Part shown: in pieces, positions 1,418 through 19,759 of the stretch
How the letters are laid out: each line of letters begins with the position of its first letter
Numbering within the stretch: position 1 is the stretch's first letter
Source: Thiolapillus brandeum
GTDB taxonomy: Bacteria > Pseudomonadota > Gammaproteobacteria > Chromatiales > Chromatiaceae
Direction: 5' to 3'
Length of the DNA: 64,000 bases
NCBI RefSeq assembly: GCF_000828615.1
Contig: NZ_AP012273.1
Location: 186,001-250,000, forward strand
Made by a program: the position numbers and the translations under genes
The notes under the pieces: model-generated
The model's input: the letters and a program-made list of their open reading frames with translations, nothing else
Told to the model about the DNA's origin: nothing
Database searches by the model: none

Positions 1418-1422
1418 TCCAC

Positions 1423-1448
1423 GCAGGCCGGGCTTCAGGCCGGCCTGC
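1423..1448. promoter_or_regulatory. intercistronic hairpin between gltB and gltD
   Basis: A 9-bp perfect inverted repeat (GCAGGCCGG at 1423-1431, CCGGCCTGC at 1440-1448) lies just after the gltB stop. No T-run follows, so it is not a standard terminator. It may stabilise the upstream message or attenuate gltD relative to gltB; this role is inferred. Confidence 0.45.
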
Positions 1449-1471
1449 ATAAGAGATTGGGTAATAGAGAA

Positions 1472-2926
1472 ATGGGTAAACCAACAGGTTTCATGGAATA
1501 CGAAAGGCTGGATCGCAGTTATGCGCCCGTGGCCGACCGTATCACGCATTATCATGAGTTTGTGATCCCCCTGGCGGAAGACCAGCTGCAGACCCAGGGC
1601 GCACGCTGCATGGACTGCGGCATTCCCTTCTGTCATCAGGGCTGTCCCGTGAACAATATCATTCCCGAGTGGAATGACTTGGTCTATCACGGCGACTGGC
1701 AGATGGCCCTGGAAGTGCTGCACTCCACCAACAACTTTCCGGAGGTCACTGGGCGCATCTGTCCGGCTCCCTGCCAGGAGTCCTGCACCCTGAATCTGCA
1801 GGATCAGCCGGTAACCATCAAGACCATCGAATGTGCCATCGTGGACAAGGGTTGGGAGCAGGGCTGGATCAAACCCCTGATTCCCGAGCATCGCACGGGC
1901 AAGCGGGTGGCCGTGGTGGGTTCGGGACCTGCAGGTCTGGCCTGTGCCCAGCAGCTGGCGCGCGCCGGTCACGATGTGGTGGTGTATGAAAAGGCGGACA
2001 GAATTGGTGGTCTGCTGCGTTACGGCATTCCCGATTTCAAGCTGGAAAAGACCCTCCTGGATCGCCGCATCGCGCAAATGCGGGCCGAAGGCGTGGAGTT
2101 TCACGTAAATACCTGTGTCGGCAAGGATATCAGCGTGGCCGACCTGCAGCAGGAATTCGATGCCCTGGTGCTGGCTGGTGGTTCCGAGGAGCCCCGCGAT
2201 CTGCCCGTGCCGGGGCGTGATCTGGACGGCGTGTATTTTGCCATGCAGTTCCTCACCGCCAATTCAAAAATGGTGCAGGGCGTGCCCGGTGCGGAAAAAG
2301 ATTTCATCAGCGCCGAAGGCAAGCATGTAGTGGTCATCGGCGGTGGTGATACAGGCTCCGATTGCGTGGGCACATCCACCCGTCATGGCGCCGCCTCCAT
2401 CACCCAGCTGGAGCTCATGCCCAAGCCGCCGGAGAAAGAAGTCAAGGAACTGACCTGGCCGGACTGGCCCAACAAGATGCGCACTTCCACTTCCCAGGAA
2501 GAAGGCTGCGAGCGTATGTGGGAAGTGCTGACCAGGGAATTCATCGATGATGGCAACGGCCATGTGAAAGCCCTGCGTTGCGTGAAGGTGCAATGGGACA
2601 GGGATGACGCCGGCAACTGGCAGATGTCCGAAGTGGAGGGCAGTGAGTTCGAACTCAAGGCCGACCTGGTCACCCTGGCCATGGGTTTCGTGCATCCCGT
2701 GCATGAAGGCATGATCGAACAGGCAGGCGTCGAGCTGGATCCGCGGGGCAATGTCAAGGGAAGCACCGAGGGCAATGACGCTTATGCCACCTCGGCAGAT
2801 GGCATCTTTGCCGCAGGCGACATGCGCCGGGGCCAGTCCCTGGTGGTCTGGGCCATCCGCGAGGGCCGTCAGTGTGCCCGCTCGGTGGATGTCTATCTCA
2901 TGGGACATTCCAACCTGCCCCGCTGA
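1472..2926 (+). CDS. gltD: glutamate synthase (NADPH) small subunit
   Basis: This is the beta subunit of NADPH-dependent glutamate synthase, which passes electrons from NADPH through FAD to the large subunit. The N-terminus carries the cysteine-rich iron-sulfur region ([17 protein letters not shown], then [12 protein letters not shown]). The FAD Rossmann motif follows ([16 protein letters not shown], about residue 150), and then the second nucleotide-binding motif [17 protein letters not shown] (about residue 290). At about 484 residues it has the expected length. The ATG at 1472 ([12 protein letters not shown]) is preferred over an in-frame TTG at 1457 because the family begins there. The Rieske gene starts 9 bp after the stop, so this operon may read into the next cluster. 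Confidence 0.97.
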
Positions 2927-2935
2927 AGGCCGGGC

Positions 2936-3949
2936 ATGGTGATGCTGGAAAACTACTGGTACATCGCCTGCTCCAGCCGCAAACTGAAAAACCGGCCCCT
3001 TGCCCTGGATATAGCGGGCAAGAGGCTGGTTTTTTTTCGTGATGCTTCCGGTCACCCGGCGGCCCTGGATGACAGTTGTCCCCACCGCAACGCCCCCCTG
3101 TCGGCAGGAAAAGTGAGTCATGGGAAGCTGACCTGTCCCTATCATGGCTGGCGCTTCAAGGGAGATGGTGTTCTGGACGAGGTTCCCTATGTGGCCGGTG
3201 AGCCGCCAGCCTGCCGCACACCGTCCTATGCCTGCGTGGAGCAGGACGGCTATGTATGGGTTTGTCCTGGGGGGCAGGCTCCGGAGAAAGCTCCGCTAAG
3301 CTTCCCTCATCTGAATTTGCCCGGCTGGACCAGCTTTGGCATGGAGACCCTGTTCCAGGGTAATGTGGAAGCCTGTCTGGAAAATTTTCTCGACTGCCCC
3401 CATGCCACCCATGTGCACCGTTACTGGTTCCGCACACCAACCGCCAAACCCGTGAAGGCCGTGATCCGCATGCTCGATGACGGAGCAGTGACCGAGTATT
3501 TCGAAGAGCCCCGGGAGAAAAGTCTGGTGTGGTCCCTGCTGTCTCCCGGCAGGACCGTTTCCATGCAGCATACGGATCGCTATATCGTGCCTGCCACCAG
3601 CCGGGTGGATTACGAGTTTGGCGATGGGCGAGCCTACAGCATCACTTCTTCCTGCACCCCGGTGGATGACACTCATACCCGGGTGTTCACGGTCATCAGC
3701 TTTCGCCGGGGCTGGCTGGGGCCTTTCATCCGTCTGTTCTTCCATCCCCTGTCGCGTCTGATCATCAATCAGGACGTGCGTATGCTGGCCCAGGTGCAGG
3801 AAAATATCCGGCGCCGGGGCGGGGCGGACTTCATGCCTTTGGAACAGGATGTGCTGTTCCGTCCCATCCATGAATGGCGCAAGGCCTTGAGAGAAGCCGG
3901 GCCGTTGCCGGAAGCGGGACGCCAGTGGCAGGTGGAATTGAAGCTGTGA
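2936..3949 (+). CDS. Rieske 2Fe-2S aromatic-ring-hydroxylating oxygenase alpha-subunit-like protein
   Basis: This is a 337-residue Rieske non-haem iron oxygenase. The Rieske cluster ligands are visible as CPHR (C48, H50) and CPYH (C67, H70). The downstream catalytic domain has the mononuclear-iron signature ENFLDCPHATHVH (two histidines after an Asn/Asp pair), followed by typical alpha-subunit sequence. Such enzymes oxidise or demethylate a small organic substrate with O2 and a separate reductase. No dedicated ferredoxin or reductase is adjacent, so electrons must come from elsewhere. The gene starts 9 bp after gltD and overlaps the next gene by 4 bp (GTGA). ATG at 2936 or at 2942 could be the start. 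The family is clear; the substrate is unknown. Confidence 0.88.
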   Translation: MVMLENYWYIACSSRKLKNRPLALDIAGKRLVFFRDASGHPAALDDSCPHRNAPLSAGKVSHGKLTCPYHGWRFKGDGVLDEVPYVAGEPPACRTPSYACVEQDGYVWVCPGGQAPEKAPLSFPHLNLPGWTSFGMETLFQGNVEACLENFLDCPHATHVHRYWFRTPTAKPVKAVIRMLDDGAVTEYFEEPREKSLVWSLLSPGRTVSMQHTDRYIVPATSRVDYEFGDGRAYSITSSCTPVDDTHTRVFTVISFRRGWLGPFIRLFFHPLSRLIINQDVRMLAQVQENIRRRGGADFMPLEQDVLFRPIHEWRKALREAGPLPEAGRQWQVELKL

Positions 3950-4680
3950 GGGAGGAGGTTTCCCGTTTGAATGCCCGGGCGGTGCCGGTGGCGGAGTTGG
4001 ACGCTGCCCGGGTAGAGGAGATGTATGGGCTCTTCAGCCGCTACTATGATGGCTGCAGTCCAACCCTGTTCCGTGGGGATCTGGATTCCAAGGATCACTG
4101 CCTGCTGCTGGAGAACTCCCGGGGCCGGTTGTGCGGCTTCACCACCCTGGCCGTGACTACCCACCAGGTGGACGGCAGACCCCTGCGTAGTCTGTTCTCC
4201 GGCGATACCATCATCCACCATGAATACTGGGGCAGCCAGACATTGCCCCGGGCCTGGTGTGAACTGGCTGGACGCATCAAGTCCCAGGCACCGGATCTGC
4301 CCCTGTACTGGTTTCTCATCGTCAAGGGCCATCGCACCTACCGCTATCTCAAGCTCTTTTCCCGGGACTACTATCCGGCGCCCGGGCGGGAAATCCCTCC
4401 TGACATGCGCAGCATCATGGATTTCCTGGCCGGACAACGTTTCGGGGAATGCTATGATGCCCAAAGCGGTGTGATTCGTTTCCCCCGGAGCCGGGGACAT
4501 CTGCGTCCCGAGTGGAACGCATTGGAGGCGGCCAACAGGAGCAAGCCGGACGTGGCTTTCTTTCTGCAAAAGAATCCCGGTCACGGGCGTGGGGACGAGT
4601 TGGTCTGCCTGACTGAACTGGACAAGAAAAACCTGAAGCGTCAGGCCCTGCAGGCGTTTATTGGAGGATTGGAAACATGA
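3946..4680 (+). CDS. GNAT-fold-like protein of unknown substrate
   Basis: This is a cytoplasmic protein of about 244 residues with no signal peptide. The middle (LFSGDTIIHHEYWGSQTLPRAW, then LPLYWFLIVKGHRTYRYL) has the alternating pattern of a GNAT-like acyltransferase core, but no clear acetyl-CoA loop is visible, so the activity is inferred. The GTG at 3946 is chosen because it overlaps the upstream stop codon in a GTGA arrangement, implying translational coupling to the Rieske gene. An in-frame ATG 72 bp upstream would overlap that gene deeply and adds no conserved sequence. The stop overlaps the next gene's ATG (ATGA at 4677). Its tight coupling to an oxygenase and a membrane protein suggests one pathway. 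Confidence 0.7.
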   Translation: MREEVSRLNARAVPVAELDAARVEEMYGLFSRYYDGCSPTLFRGDLDSKDHCLLLENSRGRLCGFTTLAVTTHQVDGRPLRSLFSGDTIIHHEYWGSQTLPRAWCELAGRIKSQAPDLPLYWFLIVKGHRTYRYLKLFSRDYYPAPGREIPPDMRSIMDFLAGQRFGECYDAQSGVIRFPRSRGHLRPEWNALEAANRSKPDVAFFLQKNPGHGRGDELVCLTELDKKNLKRQALQAFIGGLET

Positions 4681-5267
4681 GCAAGCTATCGATATTCCTG
4701 TTGGCCGGGTTGTTGGCCTTGTCGTCCATGGTTGTTGCGGATACGGATCGTGAAGCCGATCACCGGCAATTGCGCCAACTCATGGCCCAGGCCAGTGAGG
4801 CCATCAACAAGCAGGATATGGTCAAACTGCGCAGTCTGCTGACCCCGGAGTTCGTGATCACCATGGTGGATCAGCAACGCATGACCGAACCCGCACAGCT
4901 GGATGACTTCGTGGAGAAATATTTCGTAGGTGAATCCGCTCCCCTGAAAAGCATCACTGTCACTCCGGAGGCGGATGCTCCGTCACGTTTCATCGGGGAC
5001 GACGTGGCCATTGCCTATGGCCATTCTGATGACATCTACGTGTTGAATACCGGGGGAGAAGTGATGATTCCTTCCCAGTGGACCGCTACCCTGGTGCGCC
5101 AGGCTGATGGCTGGAGGATCACGGCTTTTCATGCGGGGGTCAATCTGCTGAACAACCCGGTATTGGCGGCAGCCCAGAAGAACCTGTGGACCATGGCGGG
5201 GGCTGGTGTCATAGCCGGTTCCTTGTTGATGCTGCTACTGCTTCGCCTGTTGAGAAAAAAACAATAA
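4677..5267 (+). CDS. NTF2/SnoaL-like (DUF4440-type) protein with signal peptide and C-terminal membrane anchor
   Basis: The 196-residue product begins with a hydrophobic signal sequence (LSIFLLAGLLALSSMVVA). A domain typical of the NTF2/SnoaL/DUF4440 fold follows: an initial helix RQLRQLMAQASEAINKQDM, then LRSLLTPEFVITM and, near the end, WTATLVRQADGWRITAFHAG. It ends in a transmembrane helix (GAGVIAGSLLMLLLLRLL) and a basic tail. The domain should therefore sit on the periplasmic face, tethered at the C-terminus. Members of this fold act as small-molecule binders or cyclases; nothing here fixes which. The start overlaps the upstream stop (ATGA), and 13 bp separate it from the TldD-like gene, so it belongs to the same transcription unit. 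Confidence 0.78.
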   Translation: MSKLSIFLLAGLLALSSMVVADTDREADHRQLRQLMAQASEAINKQDMVKLRSLLTPEFVITMVDQQRMTEPAQLDDFVEKYFVGESAPLKSITVTPEADAPSRFIGDDVAIAYGHSDDIYVLNTGGEVMIPSQWTATLVRQADGWRITAFHAGVNLLNNPVLAAAQKNLWTMAGAGVIAGSLLMLLLLRLLRKKQ

Positions 5268-5280
5268 GCCGAGGAGAAGA

Positions 5281-6807
5281 ATGATGAAACGCAGAGATTT
5301 TTTGAGTGCTACGGCTGCATCCGGGGTTATGTTGAGTTCACCCCGAATAGTACTGGCGGCAGGCAAACTGCTTCCCACTCATGTGCCGGATCAGCCTTTT
5401 CTGAACTGGTTCAACGTGGATGGGGTGGTCATGCGCAGGGTCATGGGGGAGTTGGTGGCCCATGGGGCGGATGCCGCGGATCTGTATTTTGAGCACAACC
5501 GGGGCAACTCCATTACCATGGAAGACCGGATTATCAGTTCCGCACGTTCCTGGATCGAACAGGGCGTGGGATTGCGGGTGGTGATTGGCGACCAGACGGG
5601 GTATGCCTACACCGAGGATCTTTCCCTGGAGGCCATGCTCGAAGCGGCGCGCACTGCAGCAGCCATCGCCAGGGGTGGCAAGGCAGTGCCTCCCCGGCAT
5701 TTCAATGTCAGCCGGGCCGGTGATATGTACCGGATTGCCATGCCCTGGTCAGCAGTGAAAGTCGATGACAAGCTGGCCCTGGTGCGCAAGCTGGAAAAAC
5801 TCGCCCGTCAACAGGATTCAGCTGTCAAAAAGGTCACCATCAACTGGTCGGACTATGAGCAGCAGGTGGTGATGGCCACCCTGGATGGGCGCATCGTTGC
5901 GGACTATCGTCCCATGACGCGCCTGTGGTGTACGGTAACCGCCGAGAAACACGGGGTGCAGCAGTCCACTTCCGCCAACCTGTCCGGGCGTTACGGCATG
6001 GACCACTATACGGACGAGCGCCTGCAGGCCCTTGCAAAGAAAGCCGTGGACAATACCCTGGTGCTGTTCGATGCGCGACGTCCCCCGGCGGGTGAGATGC
6101 CGGTACTACTGGCGGCGGGAGCCAGCGGCATATTGCTGCACGAAGCCATTGGCCATGGCATGGAAGCAGACTTCAACCGCAAGGGCACCAGCATATACTC
6201 CGACATGCTGAACAAGAAGGTGGCCAATCCCCAGGTGACCATCGTGGATCAGGGGAATCTGCCTCATGAACGCGGTGCCCTCAACTATGATGACGAAGGC
6301 AATGCTGCCCGGCGCAACCTCCTCGTGGACAAGGGCATTCTGCGCAGTTACCTGCACGATGGCATATCTGCGCGTCATTACAAGGTGCCGCCATCCGGTT
6401 CCGGACGCCGGGAATCCTATCGTCATGCCCCCATGCCGCGCATGACCTGCACCTATATGGAAGATGGGCCTCACAGCCGGGAGGAAATGATCGCTTCAAT
6501 GAAGAAAGGCATCGTGGCGGAAACCTATACCAACGGCCAGGTTTCCATTGGCGCCGGGGATTTTACTTTCTATATCAAGAACGGCTGGCTGGTGGAGAAT
6601 GGCAGGATCACCGCGCCCATCAAGGACTGCAATATCATCGGCAATGGTCCCCAGGTGTTGAAAGACATCAGCATGGTGGGGAATGACAGCCATATGGATA
6701 CCGGCGGCTGGACTTGTGGCAAGAACGGCCAGAGCGTTCCGGTTTCCCTGGGCATGCCCTCGGTGCTGGTGTCCAAACTGACCGTGGGAGGTGAACATGC
6801 CGGATAA
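5281..6807 (+). CDS. TldD-family metalloprotease paralogue with Tat signal
   Basis: This 508-residue TldD/PmbA-family protein resembles the zinc-dependent TldD subunit. The HExxxH zinc motif is intact (HEAIGH, about residues 287-292) and is followed by MEADFNRKG, as in canonical TldD. Unlike cytoplasmic TldD, it opens with a twin-arginine leader (KRRDFLSATAASG and a hydrophobic stretch to about residue 27), predicting export in folded form. A separate canonical tldD lies at 18300-19742, so this is a specialised paralogue. Two ATGs (5281 and 5284) follow a GAGGAGAAG ribosome site. The stop overlaps the start of its TldE-like partner. TldD/TldE pairs degrade or trim peptides, so a peptide step in this cluster is inferred. 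Confidence 0.9.
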   Translation: MMKRRDFLSATAASGVMLSSPRIVLAAGKLLPTHVPDQPFLNWFNVDGVVMRRVMGELVAHGADAADLYFEHNRGNSITMEDRIISSARSWIEQGVGLRVVIGDQTGYAYTEDLSLEAMLEAARTAAAIARGGKAVPPRHFNVSRAGDMYRIAMPWSAVKVDDKLALVRKLEKLARQQDSAVKKVTINWSDYEQQVVMATLDGRIVADYRPMTRLWCTVTAEKHGVQQSTSANLSGRYGMDHYTDERLQALAKKAVDNTLVLFDARRPPAGEMPVLLAAGASGILLHEAIGHGMEADFNRKGTSIYSDMLNKKVANPQVTIVDQGNLPHERGALNYDDEGNAARRNLLVDKGILRSYLHDGISARHYKVPPSGSGRRESYRHAPMPRMTCTYMEDGPHSREEMIASMKKGIVAETYTNGQVSIGAGDFTFYIKNGWLVENGRITAPIKDCNIIGNGPQVLKDISMVGNDSHMDTGGWTCGKNGQSVPVSLGMPSVLVSKLTVGGEHAG

Positions 6808-8113
6808 GATGCGCATTGCTGCGGAAAAAGCCCTGGAACTGGCCCACAGGGCCGGCGCTCGGGATGCCTGGGCCAGCGTGAGCCGCAGCCGGGACGTGAC
6901 CCATGAATACCGCGATGGCAAGCTGGAGAAAGTCAAGGACGCCACCGCCCGGAAACTGTCCGTTCAGATGTACGTGGATGGCCGCTATGCCAGCCATTCC
7001 ACCACGGATCTTCAGGAGCGTAGCCTGGAGGGCTTTATCGCCAATGCCGTGGCCCTGACCCGCGCCCTGCAGCCCGACCCCTACCGCCGGATAACGCCGC
7101 CGGAGTTGTTCCAGGGACGCAGCAACAAGGATCTTGAACTGCTGGATCCGGCTATCCGCGATCTGCAGGCGGCCCGCCGCCTGGCCTGGTGCCGGGAGCT
7201 GGATGAGGCTGTTCATGGTGACAAGCGCCTGATCTCGGCCAGTTGCGCCGTATACGATGGCAGCCGCCGCTCCCTGGGCCTGAGCAGTAATGGCTTTCAG
7301 GGTGAACAGGAGGGTACTTCGATCTGGATGGGAGCCGATCTCACCTATCGTGACCGGGGTGACCGGCGCGCCTCAGGCAGTTTCTATCCGGGAGTCCGGC
7401 AGCTGGCGGCCCTGCCATCCGTGCCGGAGATTGCCGGAGAAGCACTCAAGCGGGTGCAACAGCGGTTGGGCGTCACCAAGGGCCCCAGCCTCAAGGGTTA
7501 CATGGTGGTGGATGCCCGGGCTGCAGGCCGCCTGATCTCCTCCCTGACAGCACCGGCTTCCGCACGTGCCTTCCAGCAGAAGCAGTCTTTCTGGAGAGGC
7601 CAGGTCGGCAATCGGCTGTTCAGTGAAAAGCTGTCTCTGGTGGATGATCCCCTGTTGCCCGGCGGGCTGGGTTCCCGCCTGTATGATGGCGAAGGCATTG
7701 CGGCCCGGCCCCTGGTTCTGGTGGACAAGGGCGTGGTGAAGAATATCTACGTGGACACCTACTATGGGCGCAAGTTGAAATTGGCGCCTACTACGGGCAG
7801 CCGCTCCAACCTGCTGGTGAAACCCGGCAGCCGTTCCCTGAAAGAGCTGTTGGCCGCTGCCGGGGAAGGGGTCTATGTCACCTCCTGGCTGGGAGGCAAC
7901 GCAGACAATACCACCGGGGAATTTTCCCTCGGCCTGCGCGGACACATGATCCGCAAGGGCCAGGTGGCCGAGCCCGTGGGAGAGATGAACGTTACCGGCA
8001 ACCTGCGGAAGCTGTTTGCCAGCCTGGTGGCCCTGGGCAATGATCCCTGGCCCTATTCCAGCCTGCGCACGCCGTCCATGATGTTCGAAGGCGTGAATTT
8101 CAGCGGCGCCTGA
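6797..8113 (+). CDS. TldE/PmbA-family partner of the Tat-type TldD paralogue
   Basis: This product of about 438 residues belongs to the TldD/PmbA superfamily. It lacks the HExxxH zinc motif, as expected for the TldE-type subunit that pairs with a catalytic TldD. C-terminal family features are present (EFSLGLRGHMIRKGQVAEPV, then MNVTGNLRKLFASLVALGND). The ATG at 6797 is preferred because GGAGGTGA sits 6 bp upstream. A GTG at 6791 is also in frame. The gene overlaps the upstream stop, indicating coupled translation and a heteromeric complex. No signal peptide is visible, so if the partner is exported by Tat, this subunit might be carried along or stay inside; the sequence does not decide. Confidence 0.87.
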   Translation: MPDKMRIAAEKALELAHRAGARDAWASVSRSRDVTHEYRDGKLEKVKDATARKLSVQMYVDGRYASHSTTDLQERSLEGFIANAVALTRALQPDPYRRITPPELFQGRSNKDLELLDPAIRDLQAARRLAWCRELDEAVHGDKRLISASCAVYDGSRRSLGLSSNGFQGEQEGTSIWMGADLTYRDRGDRRASGSFYPGVRQLAALPSVPEIAGEALKRVQQRLGVTKGPSLKGYMVVDARAAGRLISSLTAPASARAFQQKQSFWRGQVGNRLFSEKLSLVDDPLLPGGLGSRLYDGEGIAARPLVLVDKGVVKNIYVDTYYGRKLKLAPTTGSRSNLLVKPGSRSLKELLAAAGEGVYVTSWLGGNADNTTGEFSLGLRGHMIRKGQVAEPVGEMNVTGNLRKLFASLVALGNDPWPYSSLRTPSMMFEGVNFSGA

Positions 8114-8116
8114 AGA

Positions 8117-8776
8117 TCAGTGTGGGCAGGGTTGCTTGCGTCCGTTCCGCCAGCAGCTGAAGGGAGGCAGCATGCGCCCCGCGGGCAGCATCTCCCCGGG
8201 GCCTACCCGGCAGCCGGGTCCCAGGCCGGAACGTATGCCCAGGATGGCTCCGCGTTCCACCACGATGGGAGCCACCAGCAGATGATGGCGGCCCTGATCG
8301 TCCAGGTTGACGATGTGCCCGGCGAGGCCCGCCTGACTGGCGATGAGAGCACCGGCCTCGACTCTGAGCAGGTAGCGCTCGCTCACCAGAATATCCCTGG
8401 CCCAGAAGGAGAAAGGACTGACCTTCGAGCCCCACAGGGTCAGCCAGCTGCCGTACAGTCCCGGCACCAGGCGCAGCAGCTCTTCCAGCACGCCGATGCG
8501 GTTGAAGAGCATTTGCAGCTGGGTCAGGAACCACCAGATGCGGAAGCTGCGGCTTTGGGGCAGGGCATCCCTGGTCAGGGGCTTGCCGAACAGGGCCAGC
8601 ACCAGGCGGCACAGAAGTGGCGGGAGGAGATAGATCCATCCCAGGGCAAACATCACGCCTGCTGCCAGACCCTGCAGATGCCACAGGATGAACCCTCCCC
8701 CCAGCAGATAGAGCAGGGGGAAATACAGCAGACTGAGCTGGAAGGCGTCGGGCTTGGCTGGGGTTTGATCTTTCAT
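8117..8776 (-). CDS. membrane protein with C-terminal hexapeptide-like (LbH) region, antisense within the cluster
   Basis: This 219-residue protein has two or three hydrophobic helices near the N-terminus (LSLLYFPLLYLLGGGFILWHL, VMFALGWIYLLPPLL). The C-terminal part has regularly spaced aliphatic and glycine residues (GHIVNLDD, VAPIVVERGAILGIRSGLGPGC). That pattern is reminiscent of a short left-handed beta-helix, as in hexapeptide acyltransferases, but no catalytic histidine can be assigned. It is the only leftward gene in the cluster. Its stop lies 3 bp from the stop of the TldE-like gene, and its start lies close to the start of the desaturase, so the two may share a divergent promoter region at 8777-8858. 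The function is unknown. Confidence 0.65.
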   Translation of the reverse strand: MKDQTPAKPDAFQLSLLYFPLLYLLGGGFILWHLQGLAAGVMFALGWIYLLPPLLCRLVLALFGKPLTRDALPQSRSFRIWWFLTQLQMLFNRIGVLEELLRLVPGLYGSWLTLWGSKVSPFSFWARDILVSERYLLRVEAGALIASQAGLAGHIVNLDDQGRHHLLVAPIVVERGAILGIRSGLGPGCRVGPGEMLPAGRMLPPFSCWRNGRKQPCPH

Positions 8777-8858
8777 GGCACCGGGCCAGTATAAGCCTGC
8801 GCAATGGAATTGTCTGCAGGCCGGGTTTCATACATATGACATATCCGGAACAAGGATC

Positions 8859-9779
8859 TTGAACAGAGAAACCATTCCTTCAGGACTGAACCTGCTAATG
8901 GCCGGTGGCGTGTTTTTTCTGGCCATGGCGCTGCTGTGGCTGGCCTCGCGCCTGTCCCTGCCCGGACAGTTGCTCTGTGGCCTGCTCTTCGCCCAGTTGC
9001 TGCTCACCAACTACCAGCTGATTCACGAGGCCAGCCATGAGCTGCTGCACCCCGATGTCCGCATCAATGATGGTGTCGGCATGGTGTTGGGCTGGCTGTT
9101 CCCGGTGTCCTTTACTCTGATGAAGGTAACCCATGTGGTGCATCATTGCTGCAACCGCAGCGACCATGAGATGTTCGACTGCTACTACCCGGGCGACAGC
9201 AGGCTTATCAAGTGGTTTCAGTGGTATGGCCTGCTCACCGGAGTCTGGTGGTGGCTGGTGCCTCTGGGCAGCCTGCTGCTGGCCATCCGCCCGGCCTGGC
9301 TGCGCTCGCCACCTTTTCGCAAGGCGCGCACCACTGCGGCCCTGTTCGATGATTTTGGCCCGGAGGAGATCCGCCGGGTGCGCCGGGAAACCCTGCTGGG
9401 ACTGCTGTTCTGGGTGGGTGCCTTCCGGTTGCTGGACCTGCACTGGCCGGGAGTGCTCCTGCTCTATGCCCTGTTTGGCTTCAACTGGGCTACCCGCCAG
9501 TACGTCACCCATGCCTTCAGTCCCCGGGACGTGGTGAATGGGGCCTGGAATCTGCGCGTGGGCCGGCTGCACGGCTGGACCCTGCTCAATGGACAATGGG
9601 ACAGGCTGCACCACCAGCATCCCCATGTCTCCTGGATCCACCTGCCGGATCTGGCCAGGGGCAGGGATTACGATCAGGACTACTGGCGGCAATACCTGCG
9701 CTTGTGGCGGGGACCAAAGCCCTGTGGGGAACCCGGCCCGGACTGCCTGCCACGCACGGGTTATGAGGTGCTGGAGTGA
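8859..9779 (+). CDS. membrane fatty acid desaturase family protein
   Basis: The product (about 306 residues from the TTG at 8859) is an integral-membrane di-iron desaturase or hydroxylase. Three histidine clusters are visible: HEASHE, HVVHH and HHQHPH, in the usual order and separated by hydrophobic helices (LMAGGVFFLAMALLWLA, WWWLVPLGSLLLAI). The family introduces double bonds or hydroxyls into acyl chains or carotenoid-like lipids at the inner membrane. The TTG start has AAGGA just upstream; an in-frame ATG at 8775 would add about 28 poorly conserved residues that overlap the divergent gene. The stop overlaps the GH3-type gene start (GTGA), so desaturation and adenylation are probably coupled steps. 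Confidence 0.88.
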   Translation: MNRETIPSGLNLLMAGGVFFLAMALLWLASRLSLPGQLLCGLLFAQLLLTNYQLIHEASHELLHPDVRINDGVGMVLGWLFPVSFTLMKVTHVVHHCCNRSDHEMFDCYYPGDSRLIKWFQWYGLLTGVWWWLVPLGSLLLAIRPAWLRSPPFRKARTTAALFDDFGPEEIRRVRRETLLGLLFWVGAFRLLDLHWPGVLLLYALFGFNWATRQYVTHAFSPRDVVNGAWNLRVGRLHGWTLLNGQWDRLHHQHPHVSWIHLPDLARGRDYDQDYWRQYLRLWRGPKPCGEPGPDCLPRTGYEVLE

Positions 9780-11284
9780 CGGCTGTCCCTGCCTGGCAGA
9801 TCATTCGAACGCGCCTGACGCACAGCCGCAGGAATTTCCTCGATCAGACCCGGGATCTGCCGCAGCAGCAGCAGGATTACCTGTCCCGCTTGCTGCACTT
9901 CCAGGCGGAAACGGATTTTGGCCGTGAGCATGAATTTGCCGCCATCCAAGACATCGCCGGCTACCGCTCCCGGGTGCCCCTGCAGGAGCCGGAGCAGCTG
10001 CAGCAATGGGTAAAGAGAATCCATGGGGGTAGTCCAGGGGTATTGAGCAGGGATACCTCCTTTTTCGAGCTTACCGGAGGCAGTGCTGGCGGCGCCAAAT
10101 ACCTGCCCTATGGTGAATCGGGTCTTGGGGATTTCCGGCGTGCGCTGTATCCCTGGCTGGATGATCTGCTGCACCAGCGGCCTGCCATTGCTGCGGGTCC
10201 GGCGTATTGGTCCATCAGCCCGGCCCTGGAATCGCTGCCCCGGAGGCACCAGGGATTGCCTGTGGGTCTGGAAAGCGACCTGTTGTACTTTGGCAGGGAA
10301 CTGGCCGGGGCCATCCGTTCGACCCTGGCCGTCCCACCGGAAGTGGGTGGTTTTCACGAACGCAAGGACTGGCAGCGTGAAACCCTGCGGCATCTGCTGC
10401 GCAATCCGGGATTGCGCCTGATCTCCGTATGGAGCCCCAGCTTCCTGCTGGGCCTGGTGGATGCCTTGAGAACCCTGGCTTCCGATCTGTATCCTTGTCT
10501 TTCTCCGTCACAGCAGGAGCGCCTGAAGTCCGCGCTCCATGGCGGGCGCCTTGATACCCGGCGGCTCTGGCCGCAGTTGGATACCATCAGTTGCTGGACC
10601 CATGGGCGCGCGGCGGCTTTTCTGGGGGAGTTGCAGGCCCGGTTTCCCCATGCCCATATTCAACCCAAGGGATTGCTGGCGACGGAGGGGGTGGTCAGTC
10701 TGCCCCTGGAAGAGGCCGCGGAGCCGGTGCTGGCGGCATGCAGTGGTTTCTACGAGTTTCTGGCAGAAAATGGAGAAGTCTGTCTGTCCTGGGAGCTGGA
10801 AACCGGCCCGTCCTATGAAGTGGTGCTCAGTAACCACCTGGGCCTGTACCGTTACCGTCTGGGGGATCGGGTGGAGGTCTGCGGCTGGCATGGCAGTCTG
10901 CCCATGCTGCGCTTTCTGGGAAGAGGCAGGGGTAGCGTGGATCTTTGTGGAGAGAAACTGAACGAAGCCTTCGTGGCCCGGGCGCTGGATGGAATGCCGG
11001 GCTTTGCGCTGCTGCTGCCCTGGGGGGATGTCCGTCCCTGCTATGTCTGTATCAGCGACCAGCCGGAAGATCATGAGGTGGAGACCCGCCTGCGGCGCAA
11101 TCCCCAGTATGACTACGCCCGCCGCCTGGGGCAGTTGGGCCCTCTGCAATGGCGCACCCTGCCCGATGCCCTGGATCGCTACCAGGCCTGGTGTCTGGCC
11201 CGGGGGCAACGCCTTGGGGATATCAAGCCCCTGGCCCTGCTGCCGGATGATGCCTTTCTGCACTACCTGGAGGGGCACCCGTGA
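9776..11284 (+). CDS. GH3-type acyl-adenylate-forming (amido synthetase-like) protein
   Basis: This 502-residue protein matches the GH3 auxin-responsive family of adenylate-forming enzymes. Near residue 100 is the glycine-rich nucleotide loop ELTGGSAGGAKYLPYGESGL. Near residue 360 is NHLGLYRYRLGDRVEVCG, and after it the hinge LRFLGRGRGSVDLCGEKLNE; both are typical of the family. GH3 enzymes activate a carboxylic acid with ATP and often conjugate it to an amino acid. Bacterial members are largely uncharacterised. Translation starts at a GTG overlapping the desaturase stop and ends overlapping the next start (GTGA at 11281). The likely substrate is an acyl chain or acid made by neighbouring enzymes; this is inference. 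Confidence 0.85.
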   Translation: MTAVPAWQIIRTRLTHSRRNFLDQTRDLPQQQQDYLSRLLHFQAETDFGREHEFAAIQDIAGYRSRVPLQEPEQLQQWVKRIHGGSPGVLSRDTSFFELTGGSAGGAKYLPYGESGLGDFRRALYPWLDDLLHQRPAIAAGPAYWSISPALESLPRRHQGLPVGLESDLLYFGRELAGAIRSTLAVPPEVGGFHERKDWQRETLRHLLRNPGLRLISVWSPSFLLGLVDALRTLASDLYPCLSPSQQERLKSALHGGRLDTRRLWPQLDTISCWTHGRAAAFLGELQARFPHAHIQPKGLLATEGVVSLPLEEAAEPVLAACSGFYEFLAENGEVCLSWELETGPSYEVVLSNHLGLYRYRLGDRVEVCGWHGSLPMLRFLGRGRGSVDLCGEKLNEAFVARALDGMPGFALLLPWGDVRPCYVCISDQPEDHEVETRLRRNPQYDYARRLGQLGPLQWRTLPDALDRYQAWCLARGQRLGDIKPLALLPDDAFLHYLEGHP

Positions 11285-12387
11285 GCCGTTACCGCTTCAG
11301 TCTGGCGGAAGAAGGGGATGATGCGGCCCTGCGGGAACGCATGGCCAGGGATGTTCTGGAAGGCCATATCGCGGTGAGCTTCCGCCGGGACCCCAGCTAC
11401 TTTGCCGGTGCTTCCGTTCAGGGAGGGCAGGCGCAAGTGATCAAGTGTCTGGACCAGCGCACCGGTCAGCTGGTGGGCATGGGTGCCCGCATGCTGTTGC
11501 CCGCCTGGATCAATGGTGAAGCGGCAACCCTGGGATACCTGGCAGATCTGCGCGGTGATCCCGCTCACCGGGGCGGCACCCTGCTGGCGCGGGGCTATCG
11601 CTTTCTGCGCCAACTGCATGAGCAGCAGCCGGTGCCGCTGTACTACTCGGTGATCCTGGAAGGCAACGATCTGGCCCTGAAAAATATCGCCCAGGGCCGC
11701 GCAGGCCTGCCGGTGTATGCACCCCTGGGACGCATGCTTACCCCGGCCATCCACCTGGACCTGCCCCGCCGGCCGGTGAAGCTGTCGGGGATTCGGCTGC
11801 AGCAGGCCAGGCCGGAGCGCCTGGATGAAATCTTTGCCTTCATCCGCCGCGAGTATGCGCGCAAGCAGTTCGCGCCCCGGTATGCACCGGCGGATCTGGT
11901 GAATGGCCGCCTGCGGGGATTGCGGGTGGAGGATATTCATCTGGCGGTAAGAGGCAATGAACTGGTGGGGGTGCTGGCGGCCTGGGACCAGAAGGATTTC
12001 CGCCAGACCCATGTGGAACGTTACAGTCCAGGACTGGCGCGTCTGCGACCGTTGTATAATCTGCTGTCCCGGATGACGCCCCTGAAGCCGCTGCCGGAAC
12101 CGGGTGCGCGCATTCCCTATTTCTATCTGGCCCTGTGCGCGGTGGCGGAGGATGACCCCGACGTTTTCAGAACCCTGCTCGCTCACGTTTACAGCCGTTA
12201 CCGCAAAGGTCCCTGGCACTATTTCATTGCCGGGCTGCACGAGGCACATCCCATGAGCAAAGTATTGCAGGAATATCGGCGCATCCCGGCAGGGGGACAT
12301 CTGTTCGCCGTGCATTACCCCGAAGACCAAACGGCTTTCGATGCCCTGGACGGGCGCCTGCCCCATGTGGAGATGGGGGCCGTATGA
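11281..12387 (+). CDS. GNAT-like acyltransferase
   Basis: This 368-residue cytoplasmic protein has a GNAT-like N-terminal half. It includes ATLGYLADLRGDPAHRGGTLLARGYRFL, where DPAHRGGTLL resembles the acyl-CoA pyrophosphate-binding loop. It then has YYSVILEGNDLALKNIAQGRAGLP, typical of the last strand and helix. The C-terminal half may be a second, degenerate GNAT domain. It would transfer an acyl group from CoA to an amine; the substrate is unknown. It overlaps both neighbours by 4 bp (GTGA upstream, ATGA at 12384), so it is made together with the GH3-type enzyme and the large FG-GAP protein. It is the second GNAT-like gene of the cluster. Confidence 0.75.
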   Translation: MSRYRFSLAEEGDDAALRERMARDVLEGHIAVSFRRDPSYFAGASVQGGQAQVIKCLDQRTGQLVGMGARMLLPAWINGEAATLGYLADLRGDPAHRGGTLLARGYRFLRQLHEQQPVPLYYSVILEGNDLALKNIAQGRAGLPVYAPLGRMLTPAIHLDLPRRPVKLSGIRLQQARPERLDEIFAFIRREYARKQFAPRYAPADLVNGRLRGLRVEDIHLAVRGNELVGVLAAWDQKDFRQTHVERYSPGLARLRPLYNLLSRMTPLKPLPEPGARIPYFYLALCAVAEDDPDVFRTLLAHVYSRYRKGPWHYFIAGLHEAHPMSKVLQEYRRIPAGGHLFAVHYPEDQTAFDALDGRLPHVEMGAV

Positions 12388-15140
12388 ACTGGCTGCGTCT
12401 GCCCTCCTGGAAAGATCCGCGTCTGCCCGTGGCGCTGCTTCAGGCCATCTATCTGTGGTTGGGCATCACGGTACTGGGCTTCAACCGCACTCCCGGAGAA
12501 CTGGTGGTGGTCATCGTCTCGGCCTGTGTGCTGGACCTGGTGTTGCACCGTCTGATCCGTGGCCGCTGGCTGTTTCCCTTCAGCGCCCTGATCACCGGCT
12601 TGTCCCTGAGTTTGCTGGTGAACTACGCCCATGGCCTGTGGCTGCCCCTGGTGCCGGTATTCCTGGCCATTGCCTCCAAATACGTGTTCGCCATCGACGG
12701 GCGGCATGTGTACAACCCTTCCCTGTTCGGCATCGTCGCCAGCCTGCTCCTGGCCAACGATATGATCAGCGTGTCTCCCGCCTACCAGTGGAACGGCATT
12801 CCCGCGCTTGGCGTTTTCATTGCCACGGCGGCCATTTTGCTGTTCGGCCTGCGCATCCAGCGCAGTCTGCTGGTGGTCTCCTTCCTGGGGTTCTTTCTCC
12901 TGGCCCTGGGACTGCGGGCCTGGATCATGCGCCACCATATCCCTCCGGAAACCCTGATCCTGGGCACCCTGAGCGCCCCGGCCTTCTACCTGTTCACCTT
13001 CTTCATGATCACTGATCCGGCCACCTCGCCGGACAGCCCCAGGGGGCAGGTGCTCATGGCTTTTTTCATCGTAGTGGTGGATTTCTTCCTGCACATCCGC
13101 GAGACCCTTTCCACCCTGTTCTACGCGGCCTTTGCCTGGTACAGCTTGTACGGTTTGTGGCGCTTGTGGCGAAGCTGTTCCGCCGGGGGCGTTTCGCCAG
13201 TCGCCGCGTTTCGCGGTTGCCACATTCACTGGCGGGAGCGCTGGCGCACCCTGCTGGTCGTGAGCGTACTGGCCGGTGCCGCCTGGGGAGCATGGCGCTG
13301 GGAGTGGATGCCTATAAGGCCGGTGAAGCCGGATTTTGTCCTGGTGGAAATTCCCGCGGAGCAGGCAGGCATCAGCACTCATCCCGGTGATGTGCTGGAT
13401 CAGGTGGACCCGCGCCTGCGCCATGTGGCCAAGTGGCTGCTGTCCGTGGGGGATGCGGTGGCCGTGGCGGATTTCGACAATGACGGTCTGCAGGATGTGT
13501 TCATCACCTATCCCCTGAAGGCCGCCGAAGACCGTGCCGCCCTGTACCGCAACCTGGGAGGCTTCCGCTTCCAGCGCGTGCCCCTGCCCATGCTGGATGA
13601 CTATGTGCATCACCCGGAACAGCAGGGGCTGCCTTCCGGCGCCCTCTGGTTCGACCAGGACAATGATGGAGATCAGGATCTGCTGATTCTCAGTGGCTAT
13701 GGCTATCCCCGCCTGCTGGCCAACCGCCTGAAGGAAACCGGCCGGGCCGGTTTCGAGGATGTCACTCCCGGTCAGCCCCTGCATGAATTCACCGTCAGTC
13801 TCACGGCCAATGTTCTGGACATGGATCGGGATGGCTGGCTGGATCTGTATCTGGGCAACGCCATGCCGCCTTATCTCTCCGGTTACGACCGGCCCACGCC
13901 TTTCACCATTTTCCATCTGCCCCCGCCGGAGTATGAGGGTGACCGCCGCGCCCTGAATGTCATGCACCGTTCCTGGCACAATGCCGACAACGGGGGCAGG
14001 GATCTGTTCTTCTTCAACCACAAGGGGCGTTTTGAAAAAGCAGACGTGGATGCCCTGGGCCTGGGGGAGACCCGCTGGACCCTGGACATCGGCACCGGCG
14101 ATCTCAATGGTGATGGCTGGACGGATCTGTACGTGGCCAACGATTTCGGGCCGGACTCCCTGTACATCAATCGCCGGGGCAAAACCTTCGAAGCCATTCG
14201 AGGCGTGCTGCGCAATACCCTGGGCCGGGACACCTACAAAGGCATGAATGCCTCCCTGGGAGACATTGATGGCAATGGTTTCGACGACATCTATGTCTCC
14301 AATGTCCACGAACCCCTGCAGGCGGAAGGCAGCCTGCTGTGGATGAATAATGGCCGGGTGGACACGGAAGGCGCGGATGCCTTCACCGATGAAGCCACCC
14401 GGCGCAATGCCCTCAACCCCCGGCGCTTTGGCTGGGGCGGGGCCATGGGGGACATGGACCGGGATGGCCGTCTGGACATCCTGCATGCCAATGGCATGGT
14501 GGATGATGCATATGATCGCCGCTACCCCAGCTGCGAAGACTACTGGTATTGGAATGCCCGCATTGCCCTCACCGGGCCGGACATCCATGGTTATGCCGAC
14601 AGCTGGGCGGACCTGCGCGGGCGCTGCATCTTTCCCTACGAGAAGAACCGGGTGATGCTCAATCAGGGGCAGTTTTTCGTGGACGTGGCGGATCAGGTGG
14701 GTTGGACACAGAAGGACAATGCCCGGGGCATCGCCCTGGTGGACCTGGACAACGATGGTGACCTGGACGTGCTCATGTCCCACCAGTTCCTGCCCCTGGG
14801 CATCTTCCGCAATGATTCCCGGAAGAAGAACTGGATCGGCCTGGCGCTGGAAGGCAATGGTGTGGGTTGCAACCGGGATGCCATTGGCAGCCGGGTGACC
14901 ATCACCTATGGCTCACCGCCCCGGCGTCAGGTGCGGGAAGTACATGCCAGCAACGGCCTGTCCGCCCAGGGAGACCGGCGTTTGCTGTTTGGACTGGGAG
15001 ATGCCTCGTACGAGGACGACGTGGCAGTGGAGGTGCGCTGGTGTGGCGGGAGCAGGGCCGGATATGAACTGGCTCCCGGGCGTTATCACCTGCTTGAGGA
15101 AACGGTAGGGGAGCCCCTGGTTGATTCTGCCGCAAGATAG
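12384..15140 (+). CDS. RnfD/NqrB-like membrane domain fused to FG-GAP/VCBS repeats and UnbV/ASPIC domain
   Basis: This 918-residue fusion starts with about ten hydrophobic segments resembling the NqrB/RnfD membrane subunit (IDGRHVYNPSLFGIVASLLL, then FFMITDPATSPDSPRG). A periplasmic part from about residue 310 carries at least seven calcium-binding-type FG-GAP repeats of the form DxDxDGxxD: VADFDNDGLQDVF, FDQDNDGDQDLL, LDMDRDGWLDLY, GDLNGDGWTDLY, GDIDGNGFDDIY, GDMDRDGRLDIL and VDLDNDGDLDVL. The UnbV/ASPIC domain closes the protein (RDAIGSRVTITYG, then VREVHASNGLSAQGDRR). It overlaps the upstream GNAT gene (ATGA) and ends the cluster. The canonical flavin-attachment motif of RnfD is not evident. 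It could be a membrane platform for an extracytoplasmic step; this role is inferred. Confidence 0.85.
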   Translation: MNWLRLPSWKDPRLPVALLQAIYLWLGITVLGFNRTPGELVVVIVSACVLDLVLHRLIRGRWLFPFSALITGLSLSLLVNYAHGLWLPLVPVFLAIASKYVFAIDGRHVYNPSLFGIVASLLLANDMISVSPAYQWNGIPALGVFIATAAILLFGLRIQRSLLVVSFLGFFLLALGLRAWIMRHHIPPETLILGTLSAPAFYLFTFFMITDPATSPDSPRGQVLMAFFIVVVDFFLHIRETLSTLFYAAFAWYSLYGLWRLWRSCSAGGVSPVAAFRGCHIHWRERWRTLLVVSVLAGAAWGAWRWEWMPIRPVKPDFVLVEIPAEQAGISTHPGDVLDQVDPRLRHVAKWLLSVGDAVAVADFDNDGLQDVFITYPLKAAEDRAALYRNLGGFRFQRVPLPMLDDYVHHPEQQGLPSGALWFDQDNDGDQDLLILSGYGYPRLLANRLKETGRAGFEDVTPGQPLHEFTVSLTANVLDMDRDGWLDLYLGNAMPPYLSGYDRPTPFTIFHLPPPEYEGDRRALNVMHRSWHNADNGGRDLFFFNHKGRFEKADVDALGLGETRWTLDIGTGDLNGDGWTDLYVANDFGPDSLYINRRGKTFEAIRGVLRNTLGRDTYKGMNASLGDIDGNGFDDIYVSNVHEPLQAEGSLLWMNNGRVDTEGADAFTDEATRRNALNPRRFGWGGAMGDMDRDGRLDILHANGMVDDAYDRRYPSCEDYWYWNARIALTGPDIHGYADSWADLRGRCIFPYEKNRVMLNQGQFFVDVADQVGWTQKDNARGIALVDLDNDGDLDVLMSHQFLPLGIFRNDSRKKNWIGLALEGNGVGCNRDAIGSRVTITYGSPPRRQVREVHASNGLSAQGDRRLLFGLGDASYEDDVAVEVRWCGGSRAGYELAPGRYHLLEETVGEPLVDSAAR

Positions 15141-15453
15141 CGTGCCATGAATTGATCGGAGGTTTCCCGGCCTGTTTCAGGACGCAGAGAAGGCCGCTGA
15201 ACAAAGCGTGTTCCGCATCAAGTGAATTTGACATCAGTTATTGGTTTGTAGTCTTATTCGTCTCATGAAGTTTTCAGCAACAGACAGAGTCGTTTTGCAC
15301 CACAGCCGCGATTGGCGACTGCGCTGGCGCTTGCCTGCTGCTGTTTGTCACTGAATCAGGATAATTTTCAACCGGCAGCCGCGCATCCCTCTGCGACTGC
15401 CTTCCTCTAAGACTCGCTGCCGGATCCGTGACTGCCTCAACCGGAGGCATTCC
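15141..15453. other. intergenic region downstream of the FG-GAP gene
   Basis: This 313-bp gap holds no convincing gene. A 41-bp dispersed repeat lies at 15170-15210 (annotated separately). A GGAGG ribosome site at 15443-15447 serves the TTG start of the transporter gene. No terminator with a T-run was found. Confidence 0.6.
15170..15210 (-). repeat. 41-bp dispersed repeat, second copy at 37283-37323
   Basis: The reverse complement of this stretch matches 37283-37323 at 39 of 41 positions; the core is TTCTCTGCGTCCTGAAACAG. The other copy is one arm of a 285-bp element with nested inverted repeats. This copy is a solitary arm without terminal repeats, so it looks like a remnant of a dispersed element. 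Confidence 0.75.
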
Positions 15454-16377: not shown

Positions 16378-16400
16378 GAGGTTTGGAAAGCGCCGGGTGG

Positions 16401-16991
16401 CTATTCCTCCTTCCATGTCACCAACAACAGATGTGCCAGCCAGGCCCACAGGGAAACCACTACCAGTCCGGTAGCGGTCAGCAGTGCCTGGTGTTCCCGG
16501 CCGGGGGGAACGTAATAGACGGGGCCGCTGCCCTGGACATGGTGCAGCATGTACCAGGCGAAGGCCGTCTCCACGAGAAACAGGGCGGCCATGACACCGA
16601 AATACTGCCGTATCAGCCGGGATTTTCCTTTGCCCGCAAGCAGCAGGCAGAGCAGGGCACTGAAGAGATCATGGCTGATGCCGTACCAGGGGTGCCAGTT
16701 CTGCCACTGGTACATCATCAGCAGTTCAATGATGGCCCGCAGCAGCATGTTGATCAGGAAGATGCTCAGGAGCCTGCGTGAGCCCTTCATGCGCGGCTCC
16801 AGCAGCATCACGGCGGGTAGCCAGTACCAGCAGAAAAGCACGCTGCCCAACCACAGGATCTTGACCCCGGCCACCGGTCCGCCCGGCAACTCGCTGTGGT
16901 TTTGGGATTGGTAAAAAAGCAGCCCGCTGATGGCCAGACCCAGCAGGCCCAGCACCAGCAGCAGGGAAGTGGTGCGTTCAGTTGCCCGCAA
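16401..16991 (-). CDS. small multi-spanning membrane protein, unknown function
   Basis: This 196-residue protein has five or six hydrophobic helices (LLLVLGLLGLAISGLLFYQ, VLFCWYWLPAVMLLEP, GVMAALFLVETAFAWYM, LTATGLVVVSLWAWLAHLLL). The family is not recognised. The TTG start (16991-16989) lies inside the last codons of pmbA, so the two genes overlap by 14 bp and are probably co-transcribed leftward. No motif suggests an enzyme activity. A start further inside is possible but would remove the first membrane helix. Confidence 0.7.
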   Translation of the reverse strand: MRATERTTSLLLVLGLLGLAISGLLFYQSQNHSELPGGPVAGVKILWLGSVLFCWYWLPAVMLLEPRMKGSRRLLSIFLINMLLRAIIELLMMYQWQNWHPWYGISHDLFSALLCLLLAGKGKSRLIRQYFGVMAALFLVETAFAWYMLHHVQGSGPVYYVPPGREHQALLTATGLVVVSLWAWLAHLLLVTWKEE

Positions 16992-19742: not shown

Positions 19743-19759
19743 GGTGATGGTTTGCTCGG

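Follow-up and report, generated by a model that had tools for sequence, protein, structure and literature searches.

Most of what is known about GH3 enzymes comes from the conjugation of plant hormones; since 2025, one bacterial lipid pathway has been added. In that pathway, which makes ornithine lipids in Singulisphaera acidiphila (OlsH/OlsI; PMC12493201), OlsH is reported to form N-acyl ornithine from a fatty acid, ornithine and ATP, a precedent for a bacterial GH3 enzyme producing an N-acyl amino acid lipid, and the authors suggest that homologues outside the planctomycetes may accept other amino acids. Here, we analyzed a 64,000-nucleotide stretch of the Thiolapillus brandeum genome (contig NZ_AP012273.1, positions 186,001 to 250,000; hereafter the window, meaning the whole stretch), which carries a gene for a GH3-type acyl acid-amido synthetase (hereafter GH3) inside a cluster of eleven genes. 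Our preferred reading, held with moderate confidence, is that this cluster encodes a GH3-dependent acyl-amide pathway with a core of GH3 and two GNAT-fold proteins (GNAT1 and GNAT2), whose product is probably a membrane lipid. Making amides or lipids with a GH3 enzyme is already known, but this gene set is apparently undescribed, as searches of an open-access library turned up the OlsH paper and no account of the set.

The GH3 ligase and its two GNAT-fold partners

In a profile search, the window GH3 resembled plant GH3 structures from end to end, the best match being GH3.12 (4epm, E 2.5e-30), where profile positions 13-501 align with residues 16-562. With the nucleotide-binding motifs taken as listed in PMC12493201, the motif I region spans T100-K108, where T100, G102 and K108 are invariant in 8/8 aligned proteins, and motif III (GLYRYRLGD, 356-364) keeps G356, L357, R359, Y360 and D364 invariant in the same eight; motif II is kept only in part, with T303/E304 invariant. 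Family and motifs together predict that the enzyme would use ATP to adenylate a carboxylic acid and then form an amide between this acid and an amine.

To place the gene in context, seven GH3 proteins were combined into a profile, and patterns taken from it collected 322 relatives in a named genome collection. Of these, the 80 best were analyzed further with flanks of up to 10 kb; most come from metagenome bins. Gene presence was scored by tblastn in 80 rows, namely the window and 79 of the 80 loci. L032 was excluded, a 3.3-kb contig that by length and match is the same as L020 of genome G167 and has no duplicate inside the locus set; with it (81 rows), GNAT2 rises to 65 and the RnfD fusion to 18. 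GNAT1 was found in 77 rows and GNAT2 in 64, followed by a desaturase (41), two B12 radical-SAM proteins (a in 37 and b in 37), a Rieske protein of any type (31), an NTF2-like protein (27), a PAP2-like protein (23), the small membrane protein smTM (18), an RnfD/FG-GAP fusion (17), AurF-type and hydrolase-like proteins (11 each), the beta-helix-like protein LbH (10) and the exported-type TldD, TldDx (2, window included). Clustering of open reading frames (ORFs) over the 80 loci and the window returned GNAT1, GNAT2, the desaturase, the two radical-SAM proteins, Rieske, NTF2, PAP2-like, RnfD/FG-GAP and smTM as the most frequent neighbour families. GNAT1 adjoins GH3 on the same strand in 69/77 rows, the window being among the eight exceptions, and in an uncultured Burkholderiales bin (L049, 3936-6725) GH3 and GNAT2 are contained in a single 929-residue reading frame.

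The partnership was also seen in whole genomes. Of 274 class genomes searched, 11 gave a match to GH3 (E 1e-10), 8 to GNAT1 (E 1e-15), 5 to the RnfD fusion (E 1e-60) and 2 to the close type of the exported TldE (E 1e-70). All 8 genomes with GNAT1 carry GH3, all 5 with the fusion carry both GH3 and GNAT1, and the three GH3 genomes that lack GNAT1 encode distant GH3 proteins. With the window genome left out, the associations of GH3 with GNAT1 (p 6e-12) and with the RnfD fusion (p 9e-7) persisted. A family-level sample of 57 genomes, whose G296 corresponds to L058, contained any GH3 match in 5, and its sole congener of the window genome (G301) had none. GH3 clusters occur in proteobacteria, cyanobacteria and planctomycetes and, in metagenome bins, also in chloroflexi and others. 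Because the set is conserved across phyla and its genes co-occur in whole genomes, the clustering exceeds chance. The first-pass annotation of this locus, made from the sequence alone, had named rare co-occurrence in related genomes among the outcomes that would refute its proposal, and the opposite was seen; the pairing of GH3 with the RnfD/FG-GAP fusion that it predicted was present in 5/5 fusion genomes.

Four Legionella species (L054, L063, L066, L070) carry a compact Rieske-GNAT1-GH3-GNAT2 set. It is followed by a gene whose product combines PAP2 and desaturase domains (by Pfam, applied to that of L070 only), then by a desaturase and a hydrolase-like gene. Viral contigs, scanned once with no query other than the window GH3 protein, yielded 2 pattern matches but not a single relative, so viral carriage of GH3 was set aside.

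Neither window GNAT-like gene had a Pfam match up to E 5 or an NCBIfam match up to E 0.01, and the evidence for their fold comes from predicted structures. The GNAT1 model (AlphaFold; predicted local distance difference test score, pLDDT, 91) is a single GNAT whose nearest Foldseek matches are Eis-like proteins, AAC(2') and NatD, and its sequence had no relative among solved structures up to E 1. GNAT2, whose sequence reached E 0.031 at best against solved structures, was modelled as a tandem GNAT (pLDDT 94). Its best Foldseek match was MAB_4324 (7q3a, E 3.7e-14), and further matches included other Eis-like proteins, a glucosamine acetyltransferase and many eukaryotic N-myristoyltransferases (NMTs), the NMT chains starting at E 4.8e-11 with template-modelling scores over the query (TMq) of 0.56-0.64 among the 50 matches listed.

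The C-terminus of GNAT2 is fixed: 52/52 complete members (here with L032 counted) end in the same alignment column, position -5 is E in 51 and D in 1, and the last residue is hydrophobic in 50 and H in two. The C-terminal ends of GNAT1 and GH3 scatter, and Rieske proteins are intermediate, with 26/35 rows in the commonest column. In NMT, the last-residue carboxylate is the proposed general base, with mutagenesis support according to a review (PMC4964394). The fixed end suggests that GNAT2 may likewise use its C-terminal carboxylate in catalysis. Because its sequence is not recognised as NMT in the Pfam search above, we describe it as possibly working like NMT and not as an NMT.

Possible alternative oxidation modules and membrane-associated members

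The Rieske non-haem iron oxygenase that opens the window cluster has a counterpart of the same type (scoring at least 170 bits against the window sequence, a threshold chosen after the scores were seen) in a total of 27/80 rows, window included, and B12 radical-SAM genes occur in 38 rows. The two never occur together (radical-SAM in 0/27 rows with the Rieske gene vs 38/53 without, p 6.5e-11), and the exclusion holds in the 50 rows of at least 19 kb (0/18 vs 22/32, p 8e-7). The RnfD fusion and radical-SAM genes are never found together either (0/17 vs 38/63, p 3e-6). One distant antisense radical-SAM match in L028 (26%) was counted in the 81-locus tally (39 rows) and excluded from the 80-row tally, and three short or odd loci with only one radical-SAM kind (L077, L080, L084) were assigned to the radical-SAM type by hand. 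The top models for radical-SAM a and b were HpnJ, PhpK-type, ladder-lipid or BchE ones, all far below cut-off.

On a GH3 tree built by a quick method, the radical-SAM label requires 8 changes, of which at least 6 are forced by starred branches. With that many changes, the split between Rieske and radical-SAM loci does not look like one ancient event. Together, these patterns suggest that Rieske and radical-SAM genes are interchangeable oxidation modules. A third type is found in six Mesorhizobium loci (L046, L053, L060, L069, L091, L096), where GNAT1-GH3 is accompanied by two genes that read as P450-like and ATP-grasp-like (names from the sequences themselves) in place of Rieske or radical-SAM genes; neither GNAT2 nor Rieske was found in the flanks of these six. 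In L126 (G313, 4-17558), a locus of the radical-SAM type, the neighbours read as a two-component system and DUF1365-like, FAD-oxidase and cyclopropane-synthase-type genes (names again from sequence reading).

The window RnfD fusion has 7 hydrophobic segments in its RnfD-like part (by hydropathy) and keeps the conserved stretches NPSLFG and FFMITDPATSP. The SGAT-type motif is the flavinylation motif of RnfD/NqrB flavoprotein subunits, and it is absent from the first 300 residues of the window protein, which argues against an ordinary flavoprotein. The count of RnfD fusions depends on the method: 19/81 loci by clustering, 17/80 with best-hit assignment and 18/80 without it; L083 carries distant RnfD-like genes. 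In the draft genome G167 (locus L142), the RnfD/FG-GAP frame contains one TGA and is divided over contig ends.

smTM has 5 hydrophobic segments (by hydropathy), is 43% identical to its L015 homologue and has counterparts in relatives (L015 and L016, for example) that sit with Rieske on one side and GNAT1 on the other; it accompanies 14/17 RnfD rows vs 4/63 others. The NTF2-like protein has hydrophobic segments at residues 4-22 and 174-192, the C-terminal one being present in 12/12 family members shown. LbH has two hydrophobic segments, predicted to be membrane helices, and hexapeptide (Hexapep) matches below cut-off, with no accepted family. Three loci (L033, L036, L041) have it colinear with their clusters. 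The first-pass annotation had placed LbH correctly as an antisense membrane gene, to which we add that it has homologues in related clusters (10/80 rows, window included).

Nature of the product

The combination of acid activation, acyl transfer, desaturation and oxygenation first proposed for this locus is still the best reading of its parts, and the acyl-amino-acid product suggested with it is a possible one. In the most likely scheme, for which we infer all substrates, the order of steps and the membrane-lipid nature of the product, GH3 would make an amide. GNAT2, probably with its free C-terminal carboxylate as the base, would transfer a further acyl chain, plausibly a long one, to an amine, and GNAT1 may carry out a second acyl transfer on the substrate or product of GH3, its near-constant partner. 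The desaturase-family enzyme and the Rieske protein would then oxidise the chain or the head, B12 radical-SAM enzymes presumably replacing Rieske for the same function in other lineages. Finally, smTM, the RnfD/FG-GAP fusion, the anchored NTF2-like protein and LbH may complete the product or bring it to its place, which for a membrane lipid, the likeliest product, would be the membrane. We favour a lipid because of the desaturase (41 of 80 rows), PAP2-like (23) and anchored NTF2 (27) families and the other membrane proteins, and because no exporter family occurs in at least 10 loci.

The strongest rival keeps the same pathway and makes its product a small diffusible acyl-amide, such as a signal, a siderophore-like compound or an antibiotic, a serious though somewhat doubtful possibility. 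It would fit the patchy distribution (GNAT1 in 8/274 class genomes, GH3 in 5/57 family genomes, other genes at the site in the congener) and the variable tailoring genes, with AurF-type proteins in 11/80 rows, the P450-like/ATP-grasp-like pair in the six Mesorhizobium rows and radical-SAM genes elsewhere. An EamA-type transporter gene also adjoins the window cluster (15454-16377), and an ABC-ATPase-like family (name from sequence reading) is present in 7/81 loci. However, the EamA gene is without a match elsewhere in the locus set, neither exporter nor regulator families occur in at least 10 of the 81, and many of the recurrent members are of the membrane or lipid type, as counted above.

Several points weigh against the GH3-dependent lipid pathway as we propose it. 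Some of its members could equally serve a diffusible metabolite. GNAT1 is missing from 3/80 rows and GNAT2 from 16/80, partly through truncation, which is probably not the reason in the six Mesorhizobium loci. Since 30/80 rows are shorter than 19 kb (50 reach at least 19 kb), gene absences may reflect truncation in general. The loci were selected by GH3 similarity, through two conserved peptide patterns, and the class sample is not independent of them because six genomes are common to both (G257/L036, G197/L037, G035/L047, G154/L072, G001/L084, G167/L032). Searches of the window genome found neither the hydrolase-like (L015) nor the PAP2-like protein that relatives have, a weak negative for want of a positive control.

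Two null results bear on the oxidation modules and belong with these points. An independent-pairs sign test of the Rieske/radical-SAM exclusion on the GH3 tree had 0-2 informative pairs of 6 and was not significant. Genomes without COX1 made up 4/21 of the radical-SAM type, a Clostridia bin and an Anaerolineae bin among them, vs 1/18 of the others (p 0.35), in a search covering the genomes of 39 loci, with L061 not among them and G330 represented by 0.8 Mb. A split into aerobic and anaerobic versions by cytochrome oxidase is hence not significant, although its direction is as expected. Because neither test was significant, an O2-dependent and an O2-independent version of one step is put forward here as a hypothesis.

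AcsF and BchE are such a pair of O2-dependent and B12 radical-SAM enzymes in chlorophyll synthesis. A wider and rather speculative idea is that these clusters make a widespread class of acyl-amide lipids, with GH3 and an NMT-like acyltransferase, in which the Rieske/RnfD/FG-GAP/smTM module can be exchanged for the B12 radical-SAM one; if true, the two modules would be a lipid counterpart of the AcsF/BchE pair. A recurrent GH3 cluster in which two GNAT-fold families, both unnamed, accompany the ligase almost constantly would point to a common but unseen class of metabolites, for which GNAT1, GNAT2 and the Rieske/radical-SAM switch offer handles to find the product.

A diverged pathway of the OlsH/OlsI kind, for an ornithine lipid or another N-acyl amino acid lipid, is improbable here. 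OlsH (NF052613) is the sole NCBIfam match of GH3 and is matched by 7/7 aligned members, and a hydrolase-like protein (name from sequence reading; no Pfam or NCBIfam match) is present in 11/80 clusters. Against this, the window GH3 scores 46.6 bits, far from the equivalog cut-off of 620, with its best stretch at residues 18-132, so its identification as OlsH is not supported. No alpha/beta-hydrolase was recognised in the window cluster, and the L015-type hydrolase was not found in the window genome. The reconstituted pathway (PMC12493201) includes no GNATs, Rieske or radical-SAM enzymes.

Gene organisation, the exported TldD/TldE pair and known systems

All ten genes of the first-pass annotation were found where it had placed them (Table 1), with Pfam matches above cut-off for 7/10 and confident GNAT-fold models for both GNAT-like genes. 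Its span has to be widened by one member, smTM, which lies beyond it on the reverse strand.

Table 1 Genes of the cluster, with positions counted from the first letter of the window
Gene product	Position	Strand	Evidence and remarks
Rieske non-haem iron oxygenase, VanA-like C-terminal domain	2936..3949	+	Pfam Rieske 77.2 bits, VanA_C 54.5 bits
GNAT1, single-domain GNAT-fold protein	3946..4680	+	ORF opens 3874; likely start GTG 3946
NTF2/SnoaL-like anchored protein	4677..5267	+	Pfam DUF4440/SnoaL_4
TldDx, TldD-family metalloprotease, twin-arginine-type N-terminus	5281..6807	+	PmbA_TldD domains
TldEx, TldE/PmbA-family partner of TldDx	6791..8113	+	PmbA_TldD domains
LbH, antisense gene, left-handed beta-helix-like C-terminus	8117..8776	-	Weak hexapeptide repeats
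Membrane fatty-acid desaturase/hydroxylase family protein	8775..9779	+	Pfam FA_desaturase 65.9 bits; real start probably further downstream
GH3-type acyl acid-amido synthetase	9776..11284	+	Pfam GH3 84.8 bits, GH3_M 58.9 bits
GNAT2, tandem GNAT, Eis/N-myristoyltransferase-like fold	11281..12387	+	Predicted structure; C-terminus E-x-x-x-hydrophobic-COOH
RnfD-like membrane domain + FG-GAP propeller + ASPIC/UnbV fusion	12384..15140	+	Pfam NQR2_RnfD_RnfE, FG-GAP, UnbV_ASPIC
smTM, small membrane protein, eleventh member	16401..16991	-	Homology to gene in relatives

The tight packing noted earlier was borne out by the ORF coordinates. GNAT1/NTF2, desaturase/GH3, GH3/GNAT2 and GNAT2/RnfD overlap by 4 bp each, NTF2 and TldDx are separated by 13 bp, and TldDx and TldEx overlap by 17 bp; the GTG that is the most likely start of GNAT1 overlaps the Rieske stop by 4 bp. 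In window 1457-2936, the Rieske start lies 9 bp 3' of the stop of gltD, and we therefore set the left edge of the cluster at the end of gltBD. The Sedimenticola locus L026 has gltD then Rieske in the same order as the window, so expression of the cluster may follow that of glutamate synthase. A promoter scan stayed at chance level (4 found vs 4.8 expected), and terminator-like sites numbered 21 vs 12.7 expected (standard deviation 4.4). Cluster and flanks are close in guanine-plus-cytosine content (0.57-0.65 and 0.57-0.64, respectively), so a recent foreign origin is not indicated. At this site, the congener carries unrelated genes beside its tldE-tldD-nitrilase genes (78% DNA identity).

Both TldDx and TldEx have all three PmbA_TldD domains. 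The TldD metal-binding motif is HExxxH, and HEAIGH is present in the TldDx translation. The N-terminus of TldDx reads KRRDFL and scores 13.6 bits against a cut-off of 22.7 for Pfam TAT_signal. A second pair, tldE/tldD at 16978-20114, is conserved in the congener; its TldD (18300-20114) is 42% identical to TldDx, and the TldE proteins of the two pairs are 27% identical. With a nitrilase gene, it forms a tldE-tldD-nitrilase run at 16978-20590, about 9 kb from the exported-type pair.

TldDx is linked to the cluster in 2/80 rows, the window and L026, both among the 50 longer rows and both of the same lineage (92% and 79% identity); a match to TldEx in L057 was 26% identical and was treated as an ordinary TldE. 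In G167, the cluster is spread over three contigs, and the exported-type pair lies on a fourth, beside other genes. TldEx homologues with 52-53% identity occur in G303 and G307. In G303, the pair stands beside other genes, none recognised as cluster members over a 14-kb stretch, and its only GH3 proteins are distant ones on other contigs; G307 has no GH3.

The peptide trimming that the first-pass annotation had listed among the functions of the locus would make the pair process a peptide modified by the remaining enzymes. Two points are in its favour: the position of TldD/TldE inside the gene run, and the close type of TldE, which in the class sample was found in 2/274 genomes, both with an RnfD-type cluster (p 2.7e-4, or 0.015 when the window genome is removed). 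Such a peptide-lipid version is nonetheless highly unlikely, and trimming is unsupported as a core step, because TldDx is linked in 2/80 loci only, from a single lineage. The separate contig in G167 and the presence of the pair in G303 and G307, genomes that have no close GH3, also stand against it, as do the gaps of 13 bp or less in the tight runs, which leave no room for a precursor gene (ORFs under 80 amino acids were not searched). Most likely, the exported pair is a lineage-specific passenger or accessory and not a core step. The antisense gene divides the run and might mark two units side by side (Rieske/GNAT1/NTF2 with the protease pair, and desaturase to RnfD), a very improbable arrangement given that GNAT1 adjoins GH3 in 69/77 rows and that L033, L035, L036 and L037 have Rieske, smTM, GNAT1, GH3, GNAT2 and RnfD in a single run.

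Among known systems, the TldD/TldE metalloproteases share their three domains with the window pair, which differs in being a second, twin-arginine-type copy and no core member of the GH3 cluster. The AcsF/BchE pair resembles this kind of cluster in its alternative oxygenase or B12 radical-SAM modules and in the matches of the radical-SAM proteins to HpnJ and BchE models, below cut-off; it differs in that a shared function is here a proposal, with no statistical support in this sample for a link to anaerobic life. With NMT and the bacterial tandem GNATs (Eis-like, MAB_4324), GNAT2 shares the tandem fold at a TM-score of ~0.6 and has a fixed C-terminus, whereas no NMT domain is seen at sequence level and the L085 relative has only a weak Acetyltransf_1 match below cut-off; this bacterial tandem GNAT may share C-terminal catalysis with N-myristoyltransferase. 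The OlsH/OlsI pathway (PMC12493201) has a GH3-family ligase at its core, and some relatives of the window cluster have a hydrolase-like gene near GH3; in contrast, GH3 is here accompanied by GNAT1, GNAT2, Rieske or radical-SAM proteins, a desaturase and membrane proteins. The plant GH3 synthetases (JAR1, GH3.12) share full-length homology and the key residues of motifs I and III with the window GH3, which is a bacterial protein encoded inside a multi-gene cluster.

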